From the NCBI GenBank assembly GCA_902625845.1, contig CACOCT010000003.1, positions 1 to 64,000 of the forward strand: DNA of 64,000 bases, written 5' to 3'. The notes below the pieces were generated by a model. That model was not told the DNA's origin. It did not search any database and was given only the letters and a program-made list of their open reading frames with translations. Shown in pieces: positions 14,414 through 45,376 of this stretch. A program made the position numbers and the translations under genes. The DNA comes from an uncultured Prochlorococcus sp. (lineage in GTDB: Bacteria; Cyanobacteriota; Cyanobacteriia; PCC-6307; Cyanobiaceae). Each line of letters opens with the position of its first letter. Positions within the stretch are counted from its first letter, which is position 1.

Positions 14414-14549
14414 GGAATCAATTTGAAATATTAATTGCTTATTAAAAGCGTTGCTTTTCTTTTTAAATTTCACTTAATCATGATCTTTAAAAGCAAATTC
14501 ATAGGGAAAATCTCGATTGTAATTTGTCCTGATATCGTTAGTAATTATA

Positions 14550-14660
14550 AAACGAAGTCTTATCAGACTAATTGATGAACTTTAGTTATCAAGATATTCC
14601 CTTTCTCGGGAAGACACTAAATTTCAGGCGGACTTTCAATCATAAAAAGATTGCCTCCAA
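14550..14660 (+). ncRNA. Candidate structured RNA: four consecutive hairpins
   Basis: The 14.41-14.91 kb gap has no ORF but holds four adjacent hairpins: AGTCT/AGACT (14556-14569), TTGAT/ATCAA (14572-14592), TTCCC/GGGAA (14597-14612) and AGGC..CAATC/GATTG..CCT (14626-14656). Local GC is higher than in the flanks. The strand is uncertain because hairpins read both ways; plus is a guess. It does not look like RNase P, tmRNA, SRP RNA or a known riboswitch. It could be a small RNA or the 5' leader of the 70-aa gene at 14911. The rest of the gap (14414-14549, 14661-14910) shows only a small AAAAGC/GCTTTT hairpin near 14440. Confidence 0.5.
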
Positions 14661-14910
14661 CTCAATAAATACAATTTAATACTTTGCATATTATTTAGTA
14701 AATCAGTGTTTATGCTGATTTACATCAAACACCTTTCTGTTTGAGAATTATATTGGTCTGCTTAATTTATTCCAGAGAATATTAAAAATTTATTTTTATT
14801 AAGGAAACTTTTTCTAAGGTTTGTAACTTTATATATTTTCCAATTCATTTTTGAAATGCTTATTTTATGTATTTATTATTAAAGTATTGTGATAAATATT
14901 CAATAATTAA

Positions 14911-23124: not shown

Positions 23125-23464
23125 TAATTTATTTTTATTAAATGAGTTATCTACAACCAAGAGATTCTATAGATGCAAATATATGGATTTATTTATTAAT
23201 GTTTTTAAATTAAATGCTTCTTAATTTAAATCCATGAGTAATTCTTAAATTTCTTTGTTGCGAATTAGCTATGGCCAAACTTCTTTAAAGTTAACTCTAT
23301 GTTTACTCAAATTTATTGATTGATTTTATATTGAAATGATAAATTTAATAATCCCTTTAGTAGTTGGAATTTCTAGAAGGGTTACTTGTTTAAATTAGTC
23401 GTTAGTTTGATCTAAAAAGAAAACAAATTCAGCTGTTTTTCGAATGCCTTGACAAACTTGTAGT

Positions 23465-28947: not shown

Positions 28948-29235
28948 CTATTGTTCAGAAATCCAGCGATTAATTATTGTGCCTTCATAGATATGCCCAG
29001 ATGCTTCAATAACTGGCTTTGTTTCTGGATTATTAAAGATATCAAATAAAACATTTTTTGGTCCTTGAAACATTACGGTTGCTCTTTTTGGCTCTTCCAA
29101 AGATTTTCCAATATAAAAAGTTTTTACACCCATCTTTTTGAACATTTCTTGTTGCTCTGGTGCATTCATGTGAGCTTCATATTCCTCAAAAGTATTACTT
29201 AATTTGAAATCTAAAACAGTTGTTTCAATAGACAT
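28948..29235 (-). CDS. DUF3764-like protein, 95 aa; paralogue of 41999-42283
   Basis: Nearly identical to the protein at 41999 over its whole length (MSIETTVLDFKLSNTFEEYE, HIYEGTIINRWISE). A small alpha/beta protein seen mainly in marine cyanobacteria, as I recall, and of unknown role. The copies differ around QGPKNVLFDIFNN versus QGPVNTCYDIFVN. Preceded by the box-hairpin leader. Confidence 0.8.
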   Translation of the reverse strand: MSIETTVLDFKLSNTFEEYEAHMNAPEQQEMFKKMGVKTFYIGKSLEEPKRATVMFQGPKNVLFDIFNNPETKPVIEASGHIYEGTIINRWISEQ

Positions 29236-33038: not shown

Positions 33039-33329
33039 TTAACTATCTAAGTATCGACAAATAAATTCAAAATGTTCATAATCCATACTTATAGTTTTGT
33101 ATTTATCAGTTTCAATTTTTCGATTATTTTTTAATTCAACTTTGATAGTTGGATGTTTGATTGAGTAAGTAGGTTTTAATCCTAACCGCTTTGCTCTTTT
33201 GTGCATATATTTTTTTACTTGAGGATTACAGCCGCAAAATAAAAGAGAGGGTCTAACAATTTTACCCGCCGAAGCTTTTGCGATCTTTTCTTCGATCTCT
33301 TCTGAAATTCTCTCTAGAATAGTCATCAT
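33039..33329 (-). CDS. Basic hypothetical protein, 96 aa
   Basis: Soluble and lysine-rich, with FCGCNPQVKKYMHKRAKRLGL containing two cysteines. Its ATG overlaps the stop of the ligase-like gene by 4 bp, so it is co-translated with it and may act on the same substrate. Not recognised. Confidence 0.6.
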   Translation of the reverse strand: MMTILERISEEIEEKIAKASAGKIVRPSLLFCGCNPQVKKYMHKRAKRLGLKPTYSIKHPTIKVELKNNRKIETDKYKTISMDYEHFEFICRYLDS

Positions 33330-34081
33330 TTTTTAATAGCCATCTGCCAGAAAGGATATACCCCACAGGACTTTTCTCGCAATAATTGTAATTTTCTAGA
33401 ATTTATTTTGACTACTATTCCATCAGTAGGATAGTTAGTAAATAGTTTCTTATTAATCCATTGATTCCTAAACATTTCAACTTGAGATGTGAATTTGAGA
33501 CTTTTATATTCTGGAATAGTAAAGTTTAATTTTTTTAGATAATTCAAAGACTCATGTTGGTTTAATCTGCCATTAATTATCTGAAAAGAACAAAATCTAA
33601 GATGGTCGCTTTTAGAATCAGCAGCCCTAATATAAGCGGCTGCTTGTCGTTGAGAATAAGTTGATCGTTCATATTCTGATGGAGAAAAGAGCTCTCCTCT
33701 AACTTGGAATAAACCTCTAATTGCAATTTGTTTAGGTATATCAGGAATCTTTTTTATTTTATTTGTAATATCTCTACCCTTACGACTTATAGCCTTAACT
33801 AATTCTCCGTCTATATATTGAATAGCAATCGCACATCCATCAATTTTCGGCTCAATAATTAATCTTGTTTTAAGTGTTAATCCATTTATGAATAATCCTA
33901 TACGATTTTTAGGTAATGATGGTAAAGGTAATATTGTTTTTTTTGTAAAGTAGTTAGCTTTAGGATTTATTCTATATAGATTTGCCTCTAATTGATCAAA
34001 TTGAGTATCACTAATTAAAGGAGTTCCCATTCTGTAATTATGGTCATACCATTCAATTCGCTCTTCTAAGTAAGTACTCAT
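33326..34081 (-). CDS. Stand-alone NAD+-dependent DNA ligase adenylation domain, 251 aa
   Basis: LigA-like N-terminal part only. The Ia domain (YDHNYRMGTPLISDTQFDQL) binds NMN. The nucleotidyltransferase motifs are EPKIDG (motif I, AMP-lysine), RGRDIT, VRGELF (motif III), DGIVVKIN (motif IV) and WQMAIKK (motif V). The protein stops right after motif V, so it lacks the OB-fold, Zn finger, HhH and BRCT domains. Either a mini-ligase relying on a partner, or an AMP-transfer enzyme. It sits next to the SRAP gene. The box leader precedes it. Confidence 0.85.
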   Translation of the reverse strand: MSTYLEERIEWYDHNYRMGTPLISDTQFDQLEANLYRINPKANYFTKKTILPLPSLPKNRIGLFINGLTLKTRLIIEPKIDGCAIAIQYIDGELVKAISRKGRDITNKIKKIPDIPKQIAIRGLFQVRGELFSPSEYERSTYSQRQAAAYIRAADSKSDHLRFCSFQIINGRLNQHESLNYLKKLNFTIPEYKSLKFTSQVEMFRNQWINKKLFTNYPTDGIVVKINSRKLQLLREKSCGVYPFWQMAIKK

Positions 34082-36081: not shown

Positions 36082-36239
36082 TTTTATATTTTTAATTGGC
36101 TTTCTATTAGTAGCAAGAAAAATGATTAATGAAAATAAATTTTTTCCATTTCATGAGAGCAAATTTCAGTTAATTCATTAAAAAAACAAAAAAAAGACGC
36201 CTGCTGGCTTTTACTGATTGCTATCGGTGAAATTTTTTA

Positions 36240-36283
36240 TGCCCTCGTTCGGACTTGAACTCGAGACCTCACCCTTACCAAGG
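36240..36283 (-). repeat. tRNA-Thr 3' fragment (left attachment site)
   Basis: TGCCCTCG, GGACTTGAAC and CCTCACCCTTACCAAGGG are shared with the tRNA-Thr at 45295. The anticodon-arm block of 18 bp is identical. The similarity ends at the anticodon stem, as expected for a tyrosine-recombinase crossover there. The T-arm carries several mismatches. Confidence 0.85.
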
Positions 36284-36352
36284 GAGATAATTATTTGATA
36301 TAAGCTAGTAATTGCAATTGTTTATAGAGAAATATATATTAAATTTCACTTA

Positions 36353-36386
36353 ATTAGTGCGAAAATTAGTGCGAAATTAGTGCATA
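36353..36386 (+). repeat. Three direct repeats ATTAGTGC at the left end
   Basis: ATTAGTGCGAA at 36353 and 36365, and ATTAGTGCATAA at 36376. The same triad occurs at 45158-45186 next to the integrase. Likely recombinase arm-binding sites. Confidence 0.7.
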
Positions 36387-36408
36387 ATAAGGTTAATTAG
36401 TTTGATTT

Positions 36409-36750
36409 ATGCATAAAAGAGCAACTAAACAAGAAACTGAATTAAGAGTTGCACATGCTGCCGAATTAGTTGCTGAAGGACAAGCTTATTCTTCAATTAC
36501 CACCCATGTCGCCGCGAAATATCGAATATCAAGAAGAAGAGCAAGAGAAATCACAAACAAAGCCTACCTTTTACTAAAAAATGATATCGAGGAAGGGGAC
36601 TTAAATCGTCCTGAGATGATAGCAAAATTATTATGTACTTTAGAGACTGCAATGCATAGAGCAATGCAGGAAAAACAATATTCAGCAGTTGCAAGTAATG
36701 CAAAAGTTCTTATGAAGTTAGTTGGCTTAGAAGCAAAAGTAAAAAGTTAG
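36409..36750 (+). CDS. Phage terminase small-subunit-like HTH protein, 113 aa
   Basis: An N-terminal helix-turn-helix (YSSITTHVAAKYRISRRRAREI) is followed by a helical oligomerisation region (MIAKLLCTLETAMHRAMQEKQYSAVASNAKVLMKLVGLEAK) that matches the usual end of TerS proteins (..A....L.KL.GL). TerS recognises packaging sites; satellites use their own to redirect helper capsids. A plain transcription regulator is the alternative. It lies between two tRNA fragments. Confidence 0.6.
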   Translation: MHKRATKQETELRVAHAAELVAEGQAYSSITTHVAAKYRISRRRAREITNKAYLLLKNDIEEGDLNRPEMIAKLLCTLETAMHRAMQEKQYSAVASNAKVLMKLVGLEAKVKS

Positions 36751-36801
36751 AGCGGGTGCTTTGGGAGCACTAGGTCGCAGGTTCGAATCCTGTCGCCCCG
36801 A
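36751..36801 (+). repeat. Truncated tRNA-Pro(TGG) 3' portion
   Basis: GCGGGTGCTTTGGGAGCAC is the anticodon arm (anticodon TGG), and GCAGGTTCGAATCCTGTC is the T-arm, ending CGCCCCGA. The acceptor 5' strand and D-arm are missing; the sequence joins the TerS stop directly. An attachment-site remnant for a second, tRNA-Pro-targeting element. Confidence 0.85.
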
Positions 36802-36819
36802 CTCAGTAAATCCAAGTGC

Positions 36820-36848
36820 AAGACAGGTTTCCCAAGCCTGTCTTTTTT
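36820..36848 (+). terminator. Rho-independent terminator after the tRNA-Pro remnant
   Basis: AAGACAGG pairs with CCTGTCTT around TTTCCCAAG and is followed by a T-run. It looks like the native terminator of the tRNA-Pro locus carried along, and would also end terS transcripts. Confidence 0.85.
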
Positions 36849-36931
36849 ATTTGTTTTCATTCTCAGATGAGAAAGGGGATCTCTAGGGGGATCTAGTTTG
36901 TAGTTACAAGTACGGATTGGTGCTTATTTAA

Positions 36932-37522
36932 CTAAAGATTATCGGTATCAGCAGCGTCTTCCTCCTCATAGCATTTATCAGTATTTATAAATTCATAATT
37001 TAAGGTAACTACTCCCTCACCTGTTGTTCTCGCATGAGTATCTAAGGCAATGTAATTTAGATGGTTAGGTAAATTATTATTTTCTTTATCCCATATAGAG
37101 GTTAAGTATCTTTCCTTTTGATATAGTCCCATCATCCAATATTTCTCCTCATCCTAAATACTTCCAGATTTTACAAAATCATATTTTTCTCCATTTCCAT
37201 ATTTTTTATTCAAAGCATTTTCAAAAAATTCAAATTTAGATTTTAATTGATCTCCAAAAGAATTTGTTTGAATTGATGTGGCTCTACCAATTATTCTGCA
37301 TAAACCACTTATTGGTGTAATAAGAAGACTGTAATTATCTAATTTTGAATTTCCTTTTGGTAATTTATCTTTGAAATACCAATAGCCTCCATCATTACTT
37401 AACTTCACACCTTTTTTTCTAATTGCTTTTACTGTCTCTCCCACTTCTAATCCAAACTGTCCTGATAGGACTTCCAAAGGAAATGAGATAGCTATAAGAA
37501 TAGGAAAAATAAATCTAAGCAT
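36932..37522 (-). pseudogene. Exported protein interrupted by one in-frame TAG
   Basis: The track shows two ORFs (37154-37522 and 36932-37135), but both lie in the same frame. From ATG 37522: signal peptide FIFPILIAISFPLEVLSG, a domain ending YDFVKSGSI, then TAG, then DEEKYWMMGLYQKERYLTSIWD to the end. Reading TAG as TGG (Trp) gives a smooth ~196-aa secreted protein. Family unknown. Recent nonsense mutation or sequencing error. Confidence 0.7.
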
Positions 37523-37669
37523 AATAAATTACTACTTAATATATAGAGTAATTATTTTCTATTAAATATCAATAATTCCTGAAGGTTCTCCCTCTAGCCT
37601 TTCCATTAATTCTCTAAGTTGGTTAAATTGCAGCTAGTAAAGGTATTAAAAATATTTTCTTAAAGATTA

Positions 37670-38056
37670 CTAATCCCTAGGAAGTATTCTATTTAATTCT
37701 GGATATTCAATTCTTAATTCTTCTATAAATGCATCAACAGTTTTCGATATCTCTCCTTTATATTTTAGATATTCCGAAACTTGAAATAATTTCATCGTTG
37801 ATTTTGTTAGAAGTAAAGTTGCAAGAGGAGATTTATCTGCCAATTTATTTGAGGGAAAATATTTTATAGCTTCAGGATAAGTTTCTTCCATATCCTCAAT
37901 ATAGTTTTCTATCTTTTCATTTAATTCATCATATTTTGTTGATAGAAACTTTTTGGTATTTAAATATTCAAATCCAGCAAATATAAAAACAACAGGGAAA
38001 CTCAAAAATAATATTGAAAGAGAAATCCTTAGAAGATTCTGGGAAAATTTTTCCAT
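37670..38056 (-). CDS. Membrane-anchored protein, 128 aa
   Basis: N-terminal anchor (LSILFLSFPVVFIFAGFEYL), then a helical, acidic domain. Two similar segments (YIEDMEETYPEAIKYFPSN and FIEELRIEYPELNRILPRD) suggest an internal duplication. Function unknown. Preceded by leader G. Confidence 0.65.
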   Translation of the reverse strand: MEKFSQNLLRISLSILFLSFPVVFIFAGFEYLNTKKFLSTKYDELNEKIENYIEDMEETYPEAIKYFPSNKLADKSPLATLLLTKSTMKLFQVSEYLKYKGEISKTVDAFIEELRIEYPELNRILPRD

Positions 38057-38099
38057 AAAAAAAGAGGATCTTATCCCTCTAATTTAGATCAGCTGTCAA
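38057..38099 (-). promoter_or_regulatory. Box-hairpin leader G (before 37670 gene)
   Basis: TTGACA-GCTG-ATCTAAATTAGA followed by AGAGG-GATAAGAT-CCTCT and a T7 run reaching the ATG. Confidence 0.8.
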
Positions 38100-38177
38100 C
38101 CAAGTAAATACTAATCCATTCGAGTTAATAAATAATTCCAATCAATATTTCAACCATTTTTACTATCAATAGGAAAT

Positions 38178-38775
38178 TTATTTAAAAAATCTAATAGTCT
38201 TAATATCGCTTTCAAATGCACCAGCTTTTTCAATTTGAAGTTCTCCTTTTTTAGCTATGCCAATATGAGAACTTAGATCAGTTGGTGGTTCATATATATG
38301 TAATTCCCTCTCTAGAAATACATGATCTAAAAATTGTTTAATGGCTCTTACGATATAGTTGCGACATACACTCTCTGGTTTCCAATCTTTTACGCAAATA
38401 TCTATTAGATCAGCAGGATTAATTGGTGGATTATTTTAACTAACTATATCAAGAGCCACTTTATATGGAGGTAAATATTTTTATTGAAAGTTGATTCTGT
38501 TATTGGAGTCCCGAAATTGATCTTTTGATCTAAAAAACTTTCTAATATGTGAACCCAATCCTTATCCTTTTTAGGTTCGTTACCTTGATCTAATTCTGCA
38601 GCAGCTTTTAATTTATGTCCTTCAATAATAAATTTCTAAATATTTCAAGTTTTTTATAAAGCATTATCAAATGTTGTGGGAGACCAATCAAATGGAAGCA
38701 TTACTGATTGCTGTTTTTCATCTTTCTTAATTTAAGTTGAACCTTACCTCTTCTCTCATTGGAAGTTATACCCAT
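38178..38775 (-). pseudogene. Decayed tyrosine integrase, N-terminal half
   Basis: Minus-strand pieces in several frames include VMLPFDWSPTTFDNAL, IEGHKLKAAAELDQGNEPKKD, KVALDIVS, NPPINPADLIDICVKDWKPES and IKQFLDHV. These follow the SAM-like/core-binding half of marine cyanobacterial phage-type integrases. Multiple stops and frameshifts; the catalytic half (R..H-x-x-R..Y) is absent. It is not a copy of the intact integrase at 43795. Confidence 0.75.
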
Positions 38776-38777
38776 CA

Positions 38778-39107
38778 TTAGGGTTTTTCAATTGGAAGTT
38801 TAGGCTTTTGAATTGGAAGTTCAGAAGCACTATTAGTTGATTGAACTAAAAGTTTTAATAATTCTGCTTGCCTCTTAGATTGACTAGCAGTTGTTCCTAA
38901 TGATCCAACAGCGGCACTAGTCACTGCCATTGTTCCAGCTGGAGTAAGTGAAATTAACAATAAATTCCAGTTTCGATTGTAATTAGTATTCTGAACGGAT
39001 TTTAATCCTAGGAAAATGCTAATTAGCAGTCCAACTAATCCAAATATTTGGCAGATGGTTCCAAAAAAAGAATCTTTAGCATTTGCTTCATTAAGTAGCT
39101 CTTCCAT
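38778..39107 (-). CDS. Two-TM protein with Pro-Lys tail repeats, 109 aa
   Basis: Two hydrophobic regions (TICQIFGLVGLLISIFLGL and LLLISLTPAGTMAVTSAAVG) and a tail with the repeat LPIQKP-KLPIEKP. Leader H lies upstream. Not recognised. Confidence 0.6.
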   Translation of the reverse strand: MEELLNEANAKDSFFGTICQIFGLVGLLISIFLGLKSVQNTNYNRNWNLLLISLTPAGTMAVTSAAVGSLGTTASQSKRQAELLKLLVQSTNSASELPIQKPKLPIEKP

Positions 39108-39148
39108 AAAAATAAGATTTTATTCTTCTAATTTAGATCAGCTGTCAA
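39108..39148 (-). promoter_or_regulatory. Box-hairpin leader H (before 38778 gene)
   Basis: TTGACA-GCTG-ATCTAAATTAGA, then AAGA-ATAAAA-TCTT and ATTTTT before the ATG. Confidence 0.75.
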
Positions 39149-39172
39149 CCAAATTAATTATTTCATGAAGCC

Positions 39173-39274
39173 TTATTTCTTAGAGGTCATCTTAAAAGTT
39201 ATATATGCAAACCCACCAAGCAATAACAAACTAACAACACCATAAGTAATTGCTATGCCATACATATAAGTCAT
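39173..39274 (-). CDS. Single-TM peptide, 33 aa
   Basis: Not in the ORF track. ATG at 39274 directly follows the stop of the 37-aa gene (TAAATG). Reads MTYMYGIAITYGVVSLLLLGG, one span, then a TFKMTSKK tail. A broken copy lies at 30965. Confidence 0.6.
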   Translation of the reverse strand: MTYMYGIAITYGVVSLLLLGGFAYITFKMTSKK

Positions 39275-39388
39275 TTATTTGGTATTTATTTTTTTCGTAA
39301 TTCTAAGATAAACATATAAACCAACACCTAGAAGAAAGACATCTAAATAAATATGCCATGGTGGAAATATCTGATGCAACAGTTCCAT
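39275..39388 (-). CDS. Single-TM peptide, 37 aa
   Basis: Not in the ORF track. ATG at 39388. FPPWHIYLDVFLLGVGLYVYL is one span, with RITKKINTK as tail. The leader I cassette upstream supports a real gene; it forms a pair with the 33-aa peptide. Confidence 0.6.
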   Translation of the reverse strand: MELLHQIFPPWHIYLDVFLLGVGLYVYLRITKKINTK

Positions 39389-39434
39389 TTAAAGAAGAGG
39401 GTTGTTATAGCCCCTATTTTAGATCTAATGTCAA
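39389..39434 (-). promoter_or_regulatory. Box-hairpin leader I (before 39275 gene)
   Basis: TTGACA-TTAG-ATCTAAAATAGG, then AGGG-GCTATAACAA-CCCT and CTTCTTTAA before the ATG. Confidence 0.7.
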
Positions 39435-39437
39435 TTA

Positions 39438-39785
39438 TCAAGAAAAGACTGGTGGATAAGGTGTTTTTCCATTCATTAAAGCTGTATCAATTGGTTTGCA
39501 GATATTCATCAGTGCATCTTGTCCAAACCCCGGTCCAGAAGGTCCATCTATAAACTCCTGAAATTCCTCAGCAGAAATACCTTCTTTTACTTCCCAAAAA
39601 CAATATACAGGGCCAGTTTTAGTTACGGCATTTGCAGAATGGTTATAAAATCCTTTTTTTTTATTAGCTGCCACGGCATCGTCCCATCCACCGCCAGGGG
39701 CCATTGCTGCATAAGCTGTTTCCCACCATTTTTCAGCTTTTCCTGCCTTAAATTCATGATGAACGATATAAAACGTTGAAGACAT
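39438..39785 (-). CDS. Conserved small protein, 115 aa (alpha/beta-barrel dimer type)
   Basis: STFYIVHHEFKAGKAEKWWETAY, GFYNHSANAV, PVYCFWEVKEGISAEEFQEF and DGPSGPGFG are well-conserved-looking blocks I associate with Prochlorococcus-specific small proteins of DUF3303-like shape. Function unknown. A dead copy is at 21055. Leader I begins right at its 3' end. Track ORFs 39519 (+) and 39623 (-) are shadows. Confidence 0.7.
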   Translation of the reverse strand: MSSTFYIVHHEFKAGKAEKWWETAYAAMAPGGGWDDAVAANKKKGFYNHSANAVTKTGPVYCFWEVKEGISAEEFQEFIDGPSGPGFGQDALMNICKPIDTALMNGKTPYPPVFS

Positions 39786-39926
39786 AAAATAATATTTGAA
39801 CTGATGATTAACATACTTCGAATAAGTAAAGGAAAGATTAATTTATTTCCAAATTTAGATTTTCAAATTTCTGAATCAACTTTACTTGAACATCAATATT
39901 ATCTTCGAATTATTTATAATTTCAGT

Positions 39927-40115
39927 ATGACTTTAAGTTCTTACAGAATGCATAAGATTTATCTGGCCGCGACCATGGGTTATGGTCTTGGCTCTGATGA
40001 TCCAGAAGAACTTGCTTATTACAATAGGTTGAGAAAAGAAATGGATATTATGAAAAAGGACTCAATCAAGAAAGGGATACCTCTAACTTGGGATATCCCA
40101 AAGGGAATTGATTGA
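39927..40115 (+). CDS. Small conserved protein, 62 aa; paralogue of 27532
   Basis: The track start at 39804 is too early; ATG at 39927 matches the start of the paralogue at 27532 (TLSSYRMH.IYLAATM.YGLG). Soluble helical protein ending IPLTWDIPKGID. Its TGA overlaps the ATG of the next peptide (TGATG). Confidence 0.7.
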   Translation: MTLSSYRMHKIYLAATMGYGLGSDDPEELAYYNRLRKEMDIMKKDSIKKGIPLTWDIPKGID

Positions 40116-40210
40116 TGAGTCTGAATACTTTTTTATTAATTGATGGGAGCCTAATGCTTGTTGGATTACCGTTATTGATGATCCTAAAAGGCAAAAAGAA
40201 GACTCCCTAA
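40115..40210 (+). CDS. Single-TM peptide, 31 aa
   Basis: Not in the ORF track. Starts inside the stop of the 62-aa gene (TGATG). NTFLLIDGSLMLVGLPLLMIL is one span, KGKKKTP the tail. The same gene pair occurs at 27532-27815 with this peptide broken. Confidence 0.6.
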   Translation: MSLNTFLLIDGSLMLVGLPLLMILKGKKKTP

Positions 40211-40321
40211 ATAATTATTATCAAGAAGTAAACTTGTATTATCAAACTTGAAAATACCGAATTTCTCAAATTGTTTTGCTGTTAAAAAGCGGTACAACCA
40301 TTAAGCGTTTCATTTATTGGC

Positions 40322-40489
40322 TTATAAGAATTTCAAAGGATAATTAACATTGTTGGGTTCAAGATGTTTTGTGTAACAAGCTGTTGTGCAATCCACTCCC
40401 TCAGCATTAATACTGCAAGATGTTATGCATTCAAAAAAACTTTCCAAAGCATCTGTATCTTTAATATTTGTATAAATGTCTTTTTTCAT
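40322..40489 (-). CDS. Twin-CX3C small protein, 55 aa
   Basis: The track start at 40522 gives 66 aa; ATG at 40489 (MKKDIYTNIKD) is likelier. CITSC-x8-CTTAC has the same spacing as the protein at 26518, and both have (D/E)S-(Y/F)-FEC before it. Possible disulfide-linked hairpin or metal binder. Function unknown. Confidence 0.6.
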   Translation of the reverse strand: MKKDIYTNIKDTDALESFFECITSCSINAEGVDCTTACYTKHLEPNNVNYPLKFL

Positions 40490-40581
40490 TGTTAAACCTA
40501 TACTCTGAAGCTTATTTAGCAAATATTTAATTATGAAGTCAAATTTTTGGTAAAGTACCTAGTCTTTTTTGGAATAATGCC

Positions 40582-40610
40582 ACACTATAGAAAAAATGGT
40601 CCAATAGTGT
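40582..40610. repeat. Inverted repeat ACACTAT/ATAGTGT
   Basis: Perfect 7-bp inverted repeat with a 15-nt spacer, no T-run. Possibly an operator in the ~300-bp spacer before the 79-aa gene. Confidence 0.5.
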
Positions 40611-40655
40611 AAGTAGAAAACTTATTAATTAAGTTATATTTTTACTCTATGGATT

Positions 40656-40738
40656 ATCGGTTTTTACGATTCGGTTTTGAAGTGTAAACCGAAGTTCGGT
40701 GTATTTGCCCTATATAATCATTCGGTTTGCGACATTAC
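40656..40738. repeat. Cluster of TTCGGTTT repeats (iteron- or operator-like)
   Basis: ATCGGTTTTT (40656), ATTCGGTTTT (40669), AAACCGAA inverted (40686), TTCGGT (40695) and ATTCGGTTT (40730): five related copies within 83 bp just upstream of the 79-aa gene, in both orientations. Confidence 0.65.
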
Positions 40739-40790
40739 AAACATTACTTATTCATATAAAGATAGGTATGTACTTATTCAGAGGTAAACA

Positions 40791-41030
40791 ATGTATTCAA
40801 TGTTTGATCTATTCTTTGATACTCCTGCATATAGACCCGTATATGTAATCTCTGATAGTGAGATGAAGGAGTTACAAAGAACACAAAATCAAGATGAACT
40901 TGAGGAAATTCGTAATCAAAAGAAAAGACTTGAAGAAGCATACAAAGCTCAAGTCAAACATCTTAATGAAAGAGAAAAAGAGTTAAGAACTGAACTAAAA
41001 GCTATTGAACCCGCTAAGAAAAAAGTTTAG
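40791..41030 (+). CDS. Coiled-coil protein, 79 aa, phage-like
   Basis: A short hydrophobic start (FDLFFDTPAYRPVYVISD) and a long charged coiled coil (EEIRNQKKRLEEAYKAQVKHLNERE). I associate this layout with small T4-like cyanophage proteins, but only from memory. ATG at 40800 is an alternative start. It has its own terminator and a repeat cluster upstream, so it is an independent unit. Confidence 0.6.
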   Translation: MYSMFDLFFDTPAYRPVYVISDSEMKELQRTQNQDELEEIRNQKKRLEEAYKAQVKHLNEREKELRTELKAIEPAKKKV

Positions 41031-41050
41031 TTTTTGATTTTTTTTATCGA

Positions 41051-41076
41051 AAAGAGGGTTTATCCCTCTTTTTTTT
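41051..41076 (+). terminator. Rho-independent terminator after the 79-aa gene
   Basis: AAAGAGGG-TTTAT-CCCTCTTT followed by T6. It lies 20 bp past the stop and may also serve the minus-strand gene through its A-run. Confidence 0.85.
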
Positions 41077-41092
41077 ATGACAGTAAAAATAT

Positions 41093-41275
41093 TTACCACC
41101 ACATACCGAGATTTAATTTTTTGGGTTCTGTATTACATGCAAGCTCACACTCGCTTAACTCTCTGACTGAGAGAGCCTCAAGTATTCTTGCCATATCAAT
41201 AGAAGATAGTTCTCCATTGACGTTCCACTTAAGTGTAGTTTTACGTTGAGGTGTGCTTTTTGTTTTCTTCATCAT
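41093..41275 (-). CDS. Basic hypothetical protein, 60 aa
   Basis: Lysine-rich start (KKTKSTPQRKTTLKW), a helix (SSIDMARILEALSVRELSE) and CELACNTEPKK with two cysteines. The plus-strand ORF 41034-41249 is its shadow. Convergent with the 79-aa gene. Not recognised. Confidence 0.55.
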   Translation of the reverse strand: MMKKTKSTPQRKTTLKWNVNGELSSIDMARILEALSVRELSECELACNTEPKKLNLGMWW

Positions 41276-41426
41276 GACTTTTTAAGGTCGGGGATAATTA
41301 AATAGCATGATTATTTAAAATTCACAAATAAAATGTGAAGTTTTTATAAGTTAAGGAATTAAATTTATTTATCAAAAATCTAGAAATTCAATTAGCGGTG
41401 TAATTAGTAAGCGTTTCATGTAAAAG

Positions 41427-41996
41427 TTAAATTGAAGTTCCTTTTTTTTGATTTGGGAAAAAATAATTTTCTGGAAAAATTTCTTTTAAATTTTCTGGAA
41501 AGAAAAACTCTAATTGCCTTCTCATGTCTCCTTTATATAAATATTCTTTGTTGGGGACTTTAAAAGTATCTCTTACTAATCGAACATTTATATTTTCCTT
41601 TTTACCTTCCTCATTAACTCTTAATAAGGCTAATTTAATTGGCTTATCTTTTGGTCCTTTTATTAAAGAAACGGCTTCTGTTATACCCATTCCTTTTGTT
41701 GATTTCCCATCAATTTTGATAATTACATCATTTGGTTGAATGTCAGCGGAAGCAGCAGGAGAATCATTTATTACAGATTGAATAGTTAATTCAGCAGTAT
41801 CACTATTAAGAAAAAGCCTTATTCCAATCCCTGAAATTTTTTTATCTTTTTTAGTAGATAGCTTTTTATTAGTTCTCACGCATCCCTCATAATCTCTTGC
41901 TTCTAAACATTTCATATGCAATTCATCAGATATTCCTGCATTAACAGCAGTAGGTAAAGCGATAGCAGCTAGTAGTGGGAGTAGTAAGCGTTTCAA
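41427..41996 (-). CDS. Exported PDZ-domain protein, 189 aa
   Basis: Signal peptide (RLLLPLLAAIALPTAVNA), a short Cys pair region (MKCLEARDYEGCVRTNKK), then a PDZ domain (residues ~55-135) with GIGIRLF carboxylate-binding loop and ASADIQPNDVIIKIDGKSTKGM. No protease domain. It probably binds a C-terminal peptide in the periplasm. 2 bp separate it from the upstream DUF3764-like gene. A dead copy is at 30010. Confidence 0.85.
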   Translation of the reverse strand: MKRLLLPLLAAIALPTAVNAGISDELHMKCLEARDYEGCVRTNKKLSTKKDKKISGIGIRLFLNSDTAELTIQSVINDSPAASADIQPNDVIIKIDGKSTKGMGITEAVSLIKGPKDKPIKLALLRVNEEGKKENINVRLVRDTFKVPNKEYLYKGDMRRQLEFFFPENLKEIFPENYFFPNQKKGTSI

Positions 41997-41998
41997 AA

Positions 41999-42283
41999 TT
42001 ATTCAGAAATCCAGCGGTTAATTACTGTCCCTTCATAAATATGACCGGATGCCTCAACTATTGGCTTAGTTTCAGGATTAACAAAGATGTCGTAACAAGT
42101 ATTTACTGGTCCTTGAAACATAACTGTCGCTCTTTTGGGATCCTCTAATGATTTGCCAATATAAAAAGTTTTTACTCCCATCTCTTTAAACATGGCCTGT
42201 TGTTCGGGAGCATTCATATGCGCCTCATATTCCTCAAAAGTATTACTTAATTTGAAATCTAAAACAGTTGTTTCAATGGACAT
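41999..42283 (-). CDS. DUF3764-like protein, 94 aa
   Basis: Near-identical to the 28948 copy except around QGPVNTCYDIFVN. First gene of a unit with the PDZ protein and preceded by leader J. Unknown function. Confidence 0.8.
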   Translation of the reverse strand: MSIETTVLDFKLSNTFEEYEAHMNAPEQQAMFKEMGVKTFYIGKSLEDPKRATVMFQGPVNTCYDIFVNPETKPIVEASGHIYEGTVINRWISE

Positions 42284-42325
42284 AAAAAAGAAGCTAATTG
42301 CCCCTTATTTTAGATGAACTGTCAA
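42284..42325 (-). promoter_or_regulatory. Box-hairpin leader J (before 41999 gene)
   Basis: TTGACAGTTC-ATCTAAAATAAG, then AAGGGGC-AATTA-GCTTCTT (7 bp, two G-T pairs) and a T-run meeting the ATG. Confidence 0.8.
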
Positions 42326-42520
42326 TATTATTCTTTAGGCCATTGCCAAGGAACTAAGCCACCTAATGCCGCCCTATTTCTTGGAGTATCTTTCTAGTAA
42401 GCGGCATTGCAATTACAACAACCCCAAGTTCTATTAATAGGAAAATCTGGAATACAGCCAATTAAAAAATATATCGTCACGCATAAAGTCCTCTTCAGTT
42501 GGATAACCTAAAACAGCTTT
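42326..42520 (-). pseudogene. Decayed copy of the zinc-ribbon gene at 43457
   Basis: Pieces YPTEEDFM, CIPDFPINRTWGCCNCNAAY-stop-KDTPRNRAALGGLVPWQWPKE match MPTQEAW, CQPDFPKHRTWGCRQCNAAFFKDTPRNRDALGGIVPWQW. A stop and a frameshift. Its 5' end runs into a 23-bp stretch copied from the integrase. Confidence 0.8.
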
Positions 42521-42521
42521 T

Positions 42522-43247
42522 CTAATTTCTTTCCAAATTGATTAAATTATCTTCTTTTGTTTCTGGAAGATTATCTACTATATTTGAAAAACTTAAAAAA
42601 AACATTAAAAATGCTATTGGCAGGCCTAAGAAATAAAAAAAGTTAGAAAGCATTCTTATCTCTTTAATATCTTCTAGATCCTTAATAGCAAGTTGTTCAA
42701 AAACTTCTTTATATTCGTCCTGAGTTGAAGGATCTCTTAGTTTCTTCAAGATATTCTTGTTATGCTCCTCAGCTTGCTTTATTTTTTTTTCGACTTCATT
42801 AATAACCTTTTTATTATTTAGTTCAATTGACTGCTTAATTTGATCCTTGTATTGAGTAAAATCTGGTTGACTTAACGCCCATCTTTTCCAAGTGTTCCAT
42901 TCTTGTGCCTGATTATTTATTTGATTAGAACGATTTGAAAAAAATATACCACTAGCAATATTCAGTCCTCCTCCCTGAATGGCATTTACAGTATTTTGAT
43001 TATTATTTGCTCTATATATTCCTGTTAATAAACTAAGTGCTGATAAGACATCCCATCCATTAAATTGACCAACGGATCTTGGTTCTATATAAACTTCATG
43101 CTGTTTTAAAAATTCTATGATTATTTGATCAAGTGATGGCATCTCTATAAGCCTGGGATCATCTTCTTTAGAGGGGACTTTAGCTAATGCCAATTCTGGT
43201 ATCCTTTCTCCAATAAATTTAAGCTGCTCTTTCGTATAATTCATCAA
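42522..43247 (-). CDS. Tail-anchored helical protein, 241 aa; paralogue of 26736
   Basis: N-terminal helix (YTKEQLKFIGERIPELALAK), a Gly/Asn-rich insert (NTVNAIQGGGLNIASGIFF), a long coiled coil (KKVINEVEKKIKQAEEHNKNILKK) and a C-terminal span (FYFLGLPIAFLMFFLSF). The last residues (NLINLERN) are encoded partly by a 23-bp block also found in the integrase. Function unknown. Confidence 0.65.
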   Translation of the reverse strand: MMNYTKEQLKFIGERIPELALAKVPSKEDDPRLIEMPSLDQIIIEFLKQHEVYIEPRSVGQFNGWDVLSALSLLTGIYRANNNQNTVNAIQGGGLNIASGIFFSNRSNQINNQAQEWNTWKRWALSQPDFTQYKDQIKQSIELNNKKVINEVEKKIKQAEEHNKNILKKLRDPSTQDEYKEVFEQLAIKDLEDIKEIRMLSNFFYFLGLPIAFLMFFLSFSNIVDNLPETKEDNLINLERN

Positions 43248-43274
43248 AATATTTTTTTTAATTCTAGTTTATTT

Positions 43275-43343
43275 GTCAATACGAATTTTGCTAATGCAGA
43301 AGATCCTGATGGATATAAAATAGAGTTAATAGAAAGAAACTAA
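43275..43343 (+). pseudogene. Glyoxalase I 3'-end fragment
   Basis: VNTNFANAEDPDGYKIELIERN-stop carries the C-terminal DPDGYKIELI block of lactoylglutathione lyase, including its metal-ligand Glu. Nothing of the upstream gene is present, so only the last ~22 codons were captured. Confidence 0.7.
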
Positions 43344-43456
43344 TGACATAATTAGAAGAAAATACTATTTTCGACCAAAACCTGCACTAATTTGTTTTCT
43401 TAGTAACAATTCCTATGAATCCAGTTTGCTGCTTGCCAACACTTACCCACATTAAG

Positions 43457-43798
43457 TTAGAAAGGTATCTCTTCGCATTGTTGTGTGTAATATTTAGGAG
43501 GTTTTTTATCATCATCTTTTCGCCATTGCCAAGGTACTATTCCACCTAATGCATCCCTATTTCTTGGAGTATCTTTAAAAAATGCAGCATTGCATTGCCT
43601 ACAACCCCAAGTTCTGTGTTTTGGAAAATCTGGTTGGCATCCCGCAATATGATATTTCCCACTTTCCCAAGCTTCTTGAGTTGGCATACCAAACATTGAA
43701 GGTTTAACTTCTTTTTTGCCACAATTTACGCATTTAATTGGCTTTCGATCAGTTACAAACCAATGAGGTTGAGATTCAGTGCATTTAAAAATATTCAT
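43457..43798 (-). CDS. Zinc-ribbon protein partnered with the integrase, 113 aa
   Basis: Two Cys pairs (CVNCGKKE and WGCRQCN) around HIAGCQPDFPKHR suggest one or two zinc sites. The C-terminal half is basic (WRKDDDKKPPK). Its ATG overlaps the integrase TGA (ATGA), so it is co-translated. Position and size suit a recombination directionality or accessory DNA-binding factor, but this is inference. A dead copy lies at 42326. Confidence 0.65.
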   Translation of the reverse strand: MNIFKCTESQPHWFVTDRKPIKCVNCGKKEVKPSMFGMPTQEAWESGKYHIAGCQPDFPKHRTWGCRQCNAAFFKDTPRNRDALGGIVPWQWRKDDDKKPPKYYTQQCEEIPF

Positions 43799-45153
43799 GC
43801 TTCAATCCTATTTTTAGAGTGGCTTTCAAATGCTCTTTGAACACTTAATTCAGTTGTATAAGCTCCGTAAGCTTTCATGTGAACGTCAACTGTGTGACCC
43901 ATTGCCTCTGCGGCATCTTTTATAGATATTGGAATTGTCGAACCTTTATGGCATTGATGAGCAAATCTATGCCTAAGACTGTATGCAGTTATATCAGAAT
44001 TATTTTTTCTAATTTCTTTCCAAATTGGATTTTTTTCTAATTTATCTACAAAGGCTCTACCAACATCTCCATATCTATTTTTCTTCTCAACTAAATTTAT
44101 TTGAGTTCTAATTGTTGCTGGTAATTTAACTAATCCAGAATCATATAAATTAATTAATTTTTCACCAAGTTTTGGCTTTTGAATTAAGTCCATTGCAAAA
44201 GCTCTTCTTGACTCTCTTTCAATATCAGATGTATTAATATTGTTTTTTACATGACCAACATATAACTTTCCATCTACAACTTTTAGAGCAGCAAGTTCAG
44301 CAAGTCTTAAACCAAAAATAGATATTAAACCAGTTGCTAAAAACATTTCATTATCTCTTGATTCAAGATCATCTAATAATCTGAATAAATCTATTTCTTC
44401 TACATAAGGAGTTAAAGATTGTTTTTTAGTTTTCTTAGCTTTACCTTTTAATTCTTTTCTAATTTCATCTTCGGGAGGTTGCCATCTTTTATCATTCATT
44501 GAATGTCTTTTGATTCCATAATTTAAAATTTCACACCATGTATCGATATATCTTTTTTTCTGATCTGGGGTAATATCAGCTAATTTTTCAACACATAATT
44601 TTATTAATTCTGTTCCTGTATTAGGTGCTGGTCTTTTATTCATTACTTCTAAAAATATTTGTATTCTGGTGAAATATTTTTTTTCAGTATTACTTGAAAT
44701 ACCTTTTTTAGTTGCCATATATTGGTCAACTTTTGAAGCCTTTAATTTTTCCTCATATTCTTTAAAAACTACATCATATTTTTTTTGAGGGTAAAAATGT
44801 TTTGGAGGAACTATTAAAAAATCTTTCCATGCTTTATTAGGAGTTTTAATATCATCATCTACAAATTGAGCTTTCCATCTTCTAGCAGCTTCACCTAATG
44901 GGAGATTTTCGTTAATAACTAATGGTTTTAAGAAATTTATAGCATTTTCAATATTTAATTTATTTTGGCTTTTCCATTGAATTGGAAGTGTAACAGAAGT
45001 CCTCTTATTGGCTTTGCCTAGCCCTTCTTGATAAACGTATAGGATTTTAGTTTTGCCACTATTTTCACCATTTACACGCCATCCTGCACCAAAATTAGTG
45101 CGAATACTATCTCTAATATCTTTTTCCCATGAAACCCTGTTGCTGCTTGCCAT
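43795..45153 (-). CDS. int: Tyrosine recombinase/integrase, 452 aa
   Basis: Catalyses site-specific insertion at tRNA-Thr. N-terminal arm domain, core-binding domain around DQYMATKKGISSNTEKKYFTR, then the catalytic domain: Arg I in FGLRLAELAAL, the second box YSLRHRFAHQCH (Y-x-x-R-H where most have H-x-x-R-H), MGHT (His) and nucleophile Tyr in MKAYGAYT. It sits 141 bp from the intact tRNA. Intact and of normal size for large cyanobacterial integrases. Confidence 0.92.
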   Translation of the reverse strand: MASSNRVSWEKDIRDSIRTNFGAGWRVNGENSGKTKILYVYQEGLGKANKRTSVTLPIQWKSQNKLNIENAINFLKPLVINENLPLGEAARRWKAQFVDDDIKTPNKAWKDFLIVPPKHFYPQKKYDVVFKEYEEKLKASKVDQYMATKKGISSNTEKKYFTRIQIFLEVMNKRPAPNTGTELIKLCVEKLADITPDQKKRYIDTWCEILNYGIKRHSMNDKRWQPPEDEIRKELKGKAKKTKKQSLTPYVEEIDLFRLLDDLESRDNEMFLATGLISIFGLRLAELAALKVVDGKLYVGHVKNNINTSDIERESRRAFAMDLIQKPKLGEKLINLYDSGLVKLPATIRTQINLVEKKNRYGDVGRAFVDKLEKNPIWKEIRKNNSDITAYSLRHRFAHQCHKGSTIPISIKDAAEAMGHTVDVHMKAYGAYTTELSVQRAFESHSKNRIEA

Positions 45154-45186
45154 TTCTATTAGTGCTATTAGTGCGAATATTAGTGC
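45094..45186 (+). repeat. ATTAGTGC direct repeats at the right end
   Basis: Copies at 45094 (inside the integrase 5' end), 45158, 45167 and 45179, same orientation as the triad at 36353. Spacing of 9-12 bp in the last three. Probable integrase arm sites. A lone inverted copy lies near 43385. Confidence 0.7.
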
Positions 45187-45294
45187 GGAATCGTTAATAT
45201 GTCCATATATTCACTTATAAGTACTTGAATTGAGGTGTATGATTTTTACTCTCTAAATTCTTTAAAACCCCTGTGGTAGTTGGGCTTTGGGCTA

Positions 45295-45366
45295 TGCCCT
45301 CGCCGGGACTTGAACCCGGGGCCTCACCCTTACCAAGGGTGTGCTCTACCACTGAGCTACAAGGGC
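45295..45366 (-). tRNA. tRNA-Thr (anticodon GGT)
   Basis: 72-nt cloverleaf on the minus strand. Acceptor GCCCTTG/CGAGGGC, D-arm GCTC..GAGC, anticodon stem CACCC/GGGTG with loop TTGGTAA, T-arm CCGGG-TTCAAGT-CCCGG, discriminator A, CCA not encoded. It is the integration target of the element to its left. Confidence 0.97.
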
Positions 45367-45376
45367 ATTTATAAAG

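Follow-up and report, generated by a model that had tools for sequence, protein, structure and literature searches.

A portable tRNA-Pro attachment site behind a terS-like gene in a probable satellite-type tycheposon of Prochlorococcus

Prochlorococcus cells are among the most abundant photosynthetic cells of the ocean, and their nutrient genes move on genomic islands. In these islands, tRNA-Pro repeats were reportedly observed by Coleman et al. in 2006. The locus in the present study shares with such islands the repeated 3′ pieces of tRNA-Pro of about 48-50 bp, but here one copy was tied to terS at other tRNA genes and was found both filled and empty. Tycheposons are known elements of Prochlorococcus (PMC10872708, describing Hackl et al. 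2023, Cell). According to that account, they are elements of genomic islands in which a tyrosine recombinase adjoins a tRNA gene, 3′ remnants of tRNA mark the opposite end, and the cargo varies and includes nitrate-assimilation genes; the elements described here share all of these features. Compared by this description, the present elements differ in that a tRNA-Pro piece fused behind terS serves elements of a different tRNA specificity. The PICIs and terS satellites are also small integrated elements with a recombinase, a TerS, and a VapE-like helicase, which we found in complete relatives of our element. In contrast to them, the copy studied here had no helicase, and its TerS was unrelated in sequence to known ones in the searches run; this comparison is one of genes alone. 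PICMIs are small marine phage satellites without terS homologues (PMC10803314); our element resembles them as a probable small marine satellite but differs in having a terS homologue. The arrangement also works like an integron cassette array, in which a fixed site heads a row of cassettes that lack a recombinase and that each terminate in another copy of this site. As read in the sequence, the site copies here were tRNA-Pro pieces instead of attC hairpins, and no IntI-type integrase was found beside the array at the terS end. A terS-fused portable tRNA-Pro site that accepts other elements was provisionally considered undescribed in the literature searched, outside of which lies Hackl et al. 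2023.

We analyzed a stretch of 64,000 nucleotides (the window; G000:C3) from a Prochlorococcus genome that was 66% complete. The first-pass annotation of this DNA had described a tRNA-Thr 3′ fragment, ATTAGTGC repeats, a 113-aa TerS-like gene, and a tRNA-Pro 3′ fragment with a terminator, and all of these features were confirmed. The tRNA-Thr(ggt) 3′ fragment was located at 36240..36286 on the minus strand (91% to a relative's tRNA-Thr, positions 26-72). It was followed on the plus strand by three ATTAGTGC direct repeats starting at 36353, 36365, and 36376 (span 36353..36383), the 113-aa terS-like gene at 36409..36750, which reads inward from the distal end of the element, and the tRNA-Pro(tgg) fragment at 36748..36802 (98%, tRNA positions 21-75). 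The stop codon of terS formed the first three bases of this tRNA-Pro-like stretch. A hairpin and T-run at 36822..36848 on the plus strand constituted a terminator-type right arm; this region had a 95% match at G000:C11:5894-5993, and right arms of the same class occurred in other Pro units. Next came a cargo region of mainly small ORFs without assigned function (36850..43456), a gene for a 113-aa cysteine-rich protein at 43457..43798 on the minus strand, homologues of which come after the recombinase gene in Thr and Ser elements, and a 452-aa tyrosine recombinase at 43795..45153 on the minus strand (phrog_216, E=7e-5), with 64% identity to its counterpart in the related element L158. Three more ATTAGTGC repeats on the plus strand (45158, 45167, and 45179; span 45158..45186) marked the recombinase end, and an intact tRNA-Thr(ggt) was located at 45294..45367 on the minus strand, with a 3′ half unlike that of the relative's gene. 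The earlier statement that no other structural gene is present was consistent with the ORFs read from 36.2 to 45.4 kb, of which the family scan covered part.

Further features were noted in the window. A closely similar pair of 94-95-aa proteins was encoded at 41999-42283, inside the Thr element, and at 28948-29235, outside it. At 33039-34081, a 251-aa protein was restricted to the adenylation portion of an NAD-dependent DNA ligase (PF01653) and was adjoined by a 96-aa ORF and an SRAP protein. The cyanobacterial non-coding RNAs Yfr8 and Yfr13 were located at 14462-14666 and 23271-23369.

The distribution of the repeats was then considered together with the two tRNA-Thr sequences. The window contained 10 copies of ATTAGTGC, compared with 1.8 expected, and six of them made up the two matched triplets, one per end of the Thr element. 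The triplets at 36353..36383 and 45158..45186 are probably the recombinase arm sites at the distal end and at the recombinase end, respectively. Similar repeats were found at both ends of the related Gly element L050, and the Thr element L158 had matched repeats of its own. The orphan Thr fragment retained the host-like 3′ sequence (GGTCTCG), as in the relative's intact gene, and the 3′ half of the window's intact tRNA-Thr differed from the host-like version; the same swap was seen in L158. A variant 3′ half in the intact gene combined with a host-like orphan is expected from integration at the 3′ half of a tRNA, the variant half having been brought in by the element. The fragment at 36240..36286 is the distal attachment remnant and carries the displaced 3′ half of the host gene. 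The matched triplets, the recombinase at the intact tRNA-Thr, and the 3′-half swap thus delimited an element of about 9 kb at 36238-45367. On these features, it is a single tycheposon-type element in tRNA-Thr, with the locus under study as its distal end, and it has the tycheposon arrangement of a tyrosine recombinase (43795-45153) beside an intact tRNA-Thr (from 45294) and a tRNA remnant (from 36240) at the opposite end.

To place the terS/tRNA-Pro junction among relatives, we retrieved 61 related loci from genome contigs, almost all of them with Prochlorococcus in the title. Of 200 genomes sampled from the genus, 66 contained a match. The mapped near-full copies numbered 54, and every one was situated immediately interior to a tRNA remnant; the upstream tRNA fragment was from Thr in 34, Ala in 17, and Gly in 3. 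In 28 of the 54, a tRNA-Pro core began at the terS stop codon or only a few bases from it, so that the junction, for which a search of other genomes had been proposed, was indeed recurrent. By class, the core was found in 13/16 short-spaced Thr, 11/17 Ala, 3/3 Gly, and 1/18 long-spaced Thr copies. Because the Pro piece accompanied terS at Thr, Ala, and Gly elements alike, it appeared to be a standing part of the element family; since half of the copies were without it, it was not essential to terS. A chance junction was ruled out by its occurrence in 28/54 copies together with the upstream tRNA fragment in 54/54. Positions were compared in eight genomes (G010, G013, G018, G022, G024, G025, G026, and G036); in all of them, terS and the intact tRNA-Pro lay on different contigs or far apart, which ruled out placement of the Pro piece at the genuine tRNA-Pro gene in these relatives. 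The tRNA-Ala(ggc) elements occurred in two polarities, one with an orphan 3′ half and the other with an orphan 5′ half (positions 1-42), both with the anticodon arm as the common core (L016, L021, L023, L025, L034, L043, L045, and L163).

Two tRNA fragments less than 560 bp apart might also be explained by separate Thr and Pro elements that abut by chance, in which case terS would be the end of a tRNA-Pro-integrated satellite, and the first-pass annotation had accordingly proposed that two elements were joined here. We consider this explanation very unlikely. The identical junction was found behind Thr, Ala, and Gly remnants, the Pro core at terS lacked the left arm typical of Pro elements, and terS was located outside the tRNA-Pro island in 8/8 genomes. 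In the genomes compared, the wrong left arm and the absence from the Pro island ruled out that an element targeting tRNA-Pro ends in terS. The proposal of two joined elements was thus not supported as worded, as only the Thr fragment bounds the window element and the Pro piece belongs to the family.

The tRNA-Pro islands consisted of arrays of Pro cores of about 50 bp headed by the intact gene. An ordinary Pro unit had a recurring left arm (..ATAGC..ATAAGTCTCA..), a core corresponding to tRNA positions 25/29 to 75, and a right arm that was either terminator-like or made of paired short repeats. For the cores linked to terS, the 3′ end of terS itself took the place of this left arm, and right arms of both kinds were found. 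The terS DNA was 92% identical in the median pair, and the 300 bp 3′ of the core were at the shuffled level (0.55 vs. 0.54); some right flanks were common to Pro islands and terS sites. In L018, L024, L031, L034, and L053, the Pro cores just 3′ of terS were broken in the T-arm (GGTTCGAATCC) and followed by unrelated sequence, as if joined via the T-arm of another tRNA.

Use of the terS-linked core was examined by comparing filled and empty loci. The flanks of L012 and L031 were 91-94% identical for kilobases on either side, and L012 had 3.0 kb extra exactly at the terS-linked core, comprising two cassettes with a core after each and no recognised recombinase gene. Similarly, L015 and L018 had flanks with 92-96% identity, and one of the two genomes had 3.7 kb extra at the terS-linked core. 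In the genome G018, a 16,557-bp alignment with 99.8% identity (100% over the 16,228 bp first compared) connected the genuine tRNA-Pro site with the terS-linked core. The two copies were located at G018:C1:1075772-1092325 (tRNA-Pro) and 1290010-1306564 (terS-linked core, from 1306564 downward); their homology began at tRNA position 25, and both ended at a Pro core and diverged beyond it. This element of about 16 kb carried molybdopterin-cofactor and nitrate/nitrite-assimilation-like genes, which were named by eye, and a tyrosine recombinase at its far end. Among HLII genomes, duplicate nitrate clusters located in separate islands have been documented for MIT0604 alone (PMC6370341), and the arrangement in G018 fits this description, although identity of the two genomes is not claimed. 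The signs of mobility were docked insertions at the Pro core, namely the filled/empty pairs and the near-identical second copy, and they concern the inserts, not the Thr element. Sequence comparison thus showed the terS-linked tRNA-Pro piece to be a used integration site, in addition to the element boundaries and the conserved junction described above.

The cores were nearly identical, so homologous recombination between these sequences of about 50 bp is a possible source of some exchanges, and the sequences cannot fully separate it from site-specific recombination. Such exchange between near-identical cores would also suit an explanation in which the Pro piece is retained for a role in RNA or transcription, such as the end of the terS transcript or a tRNA-like structure, and the insertions reflect incidental homologous recombination between repeats. 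The terminator-like hairpin after many copies is in line with this explanation, but several copies had no terminator and had truncated cores. Moreover, the insert ends coincided with the core edges that the tRNA-Pro element uses at the real tRNA gene, and the element in G018 had its tyrosine recombinase. In view of these observations, an RNA feature with incidental insertions seems improbable, and we favor integration at the Pro core.

To evaluate the identity of the 113-aa protein, the first-pass annotation had proposed structure prediction and an HMM search against TerS families. The AlphaFold model, built from an 18-sequence alignment, had low confidence (mean pLDDT 61), and Foldseek searches of PDB and BFVD returned nothing at ≤1e-3; the prediction was thus uninformative. 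No match to TerS was obtained in Pfam, NCBIfam, or PDB sequence searches, and profile comparison indicated no relationship to the TerS of cyanophage P-SS2. The protein matched phrog_34910, a family with unassigned function (E=2.6e-6), members of which lay directly upstream of terL of two families in marine picocyanobacteria. In L178, a 107-aa member overlapped the start of terL (phrog_2, E=7e-33), and in L191 and L192, a 177-aa member preceded a TerL of phrog_38 (E about 2e-74). This adjacency holds at the family level, as the window's own gene had no terL beside it. The gene context suggested that the 113-aa protein is a TerS, so the earlier assignment gained support from the neighbors of the family but not from any direct resemblance, in sequence or structure, to a known TerS. 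The protein could otherwise be a DNA-binding regulator of the element instead of a terminase subunit. The all-helical prediction, a weak match to the late transcriptional activator family phrog_836 (E=0.044), and the lack of TerS matches in the Pfam, NCBIfam, and PDB searches are compatible with a regulator. In contrast, members of the same PHROG lay immediately 5′ of terL genes of two families, so that the matches were not confined to plain transcription regulators, and the gene was constantly placed at the distal end of satellite-like elements. We consider a regulator unlikely and retain TerS as the assignment.

The complete relatives were further compared with the window element. L158 and L159, both at tRNA-Thr, contained a helicase related to VapE (PF05272, 5e-42 in L158), as well as a TerS with 27-30% identity and two more small genes at the same end. 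A recombinase was present as well in L158, which thus combined recombination, replication, and packaging genes, and L159 starts within the helicase. For the window element, a recombinase and TerS were identified, and no replication gene was recognised. The TerS-like gene at an attachment site, which the first-pass annotation had taken as a signature of satellites, and the satellite-like complete relatives agreed with that view; the window copy itself had no helicase. Two small proteins (about 135 and 110 aa) adjoined terS in the complete elements L158, L160, and L163 (L158:10033-10775, L160:8315-9320, and L163:9248-9861) and were absent from the window element; homologues were also found away from terS at L016:10617-11345.

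Phage satellites are known to redirect packaging with a TerS of their own. In IMG/VR, no match was found for the 113-aa protein, its diverged form, the helicase, the recombinase, or the junction DNA, so the proposed look-up of the junction in viral contigs was negative, and the phage records contained no match for the 113-aa protein. Without relatives in viral contigs and phage records, packaging was unsupported in these data.

Collectively, we regard it as likely that the window element is a satellite-type tycheposon in which cargo elements dock at a portable tRNA-Pro attachment site located behind terS. In this model, terS, which lies just inside the distal attachment remnant and reads inward, has a tRNA-Pro 3′ piece fused to its stop, and this piece acts as a second, portable site of attachment. 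Small cassettes and whole elements normally found at the genuine tRNA-Pro would recombine into the terS-linked piece, giving the order terS, core, cargo, core. A tRNA-Pro-type tyrosine recombinase would insert its own element into the terS-linked core and may act in trans for cassettes without a recombinase. The putative TerS would direct packaging of the satellite, together with the cargo docked in it, into the particles of a helper phage. As a more tentative suggestion, which we think may well not hold, satellite-like elements of Prochlorococcus could keep a Pro docking site behind the packaging gene so that nutrient-gene elements and small cassettes load in an integron-like array and are packaged and passed from cell to cell as a composite.

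The proposed docking would provide a two-tier route, in which cargo of the tRNA-Pro island lands on the portable site of terS-carrying elements at other tRNAs. It would account for the presence of the nitrate-assimilation element of about 16 kb at two places in one genome, and it would make testable the question of whether phage satellites are carriers of ecologically useful genes.
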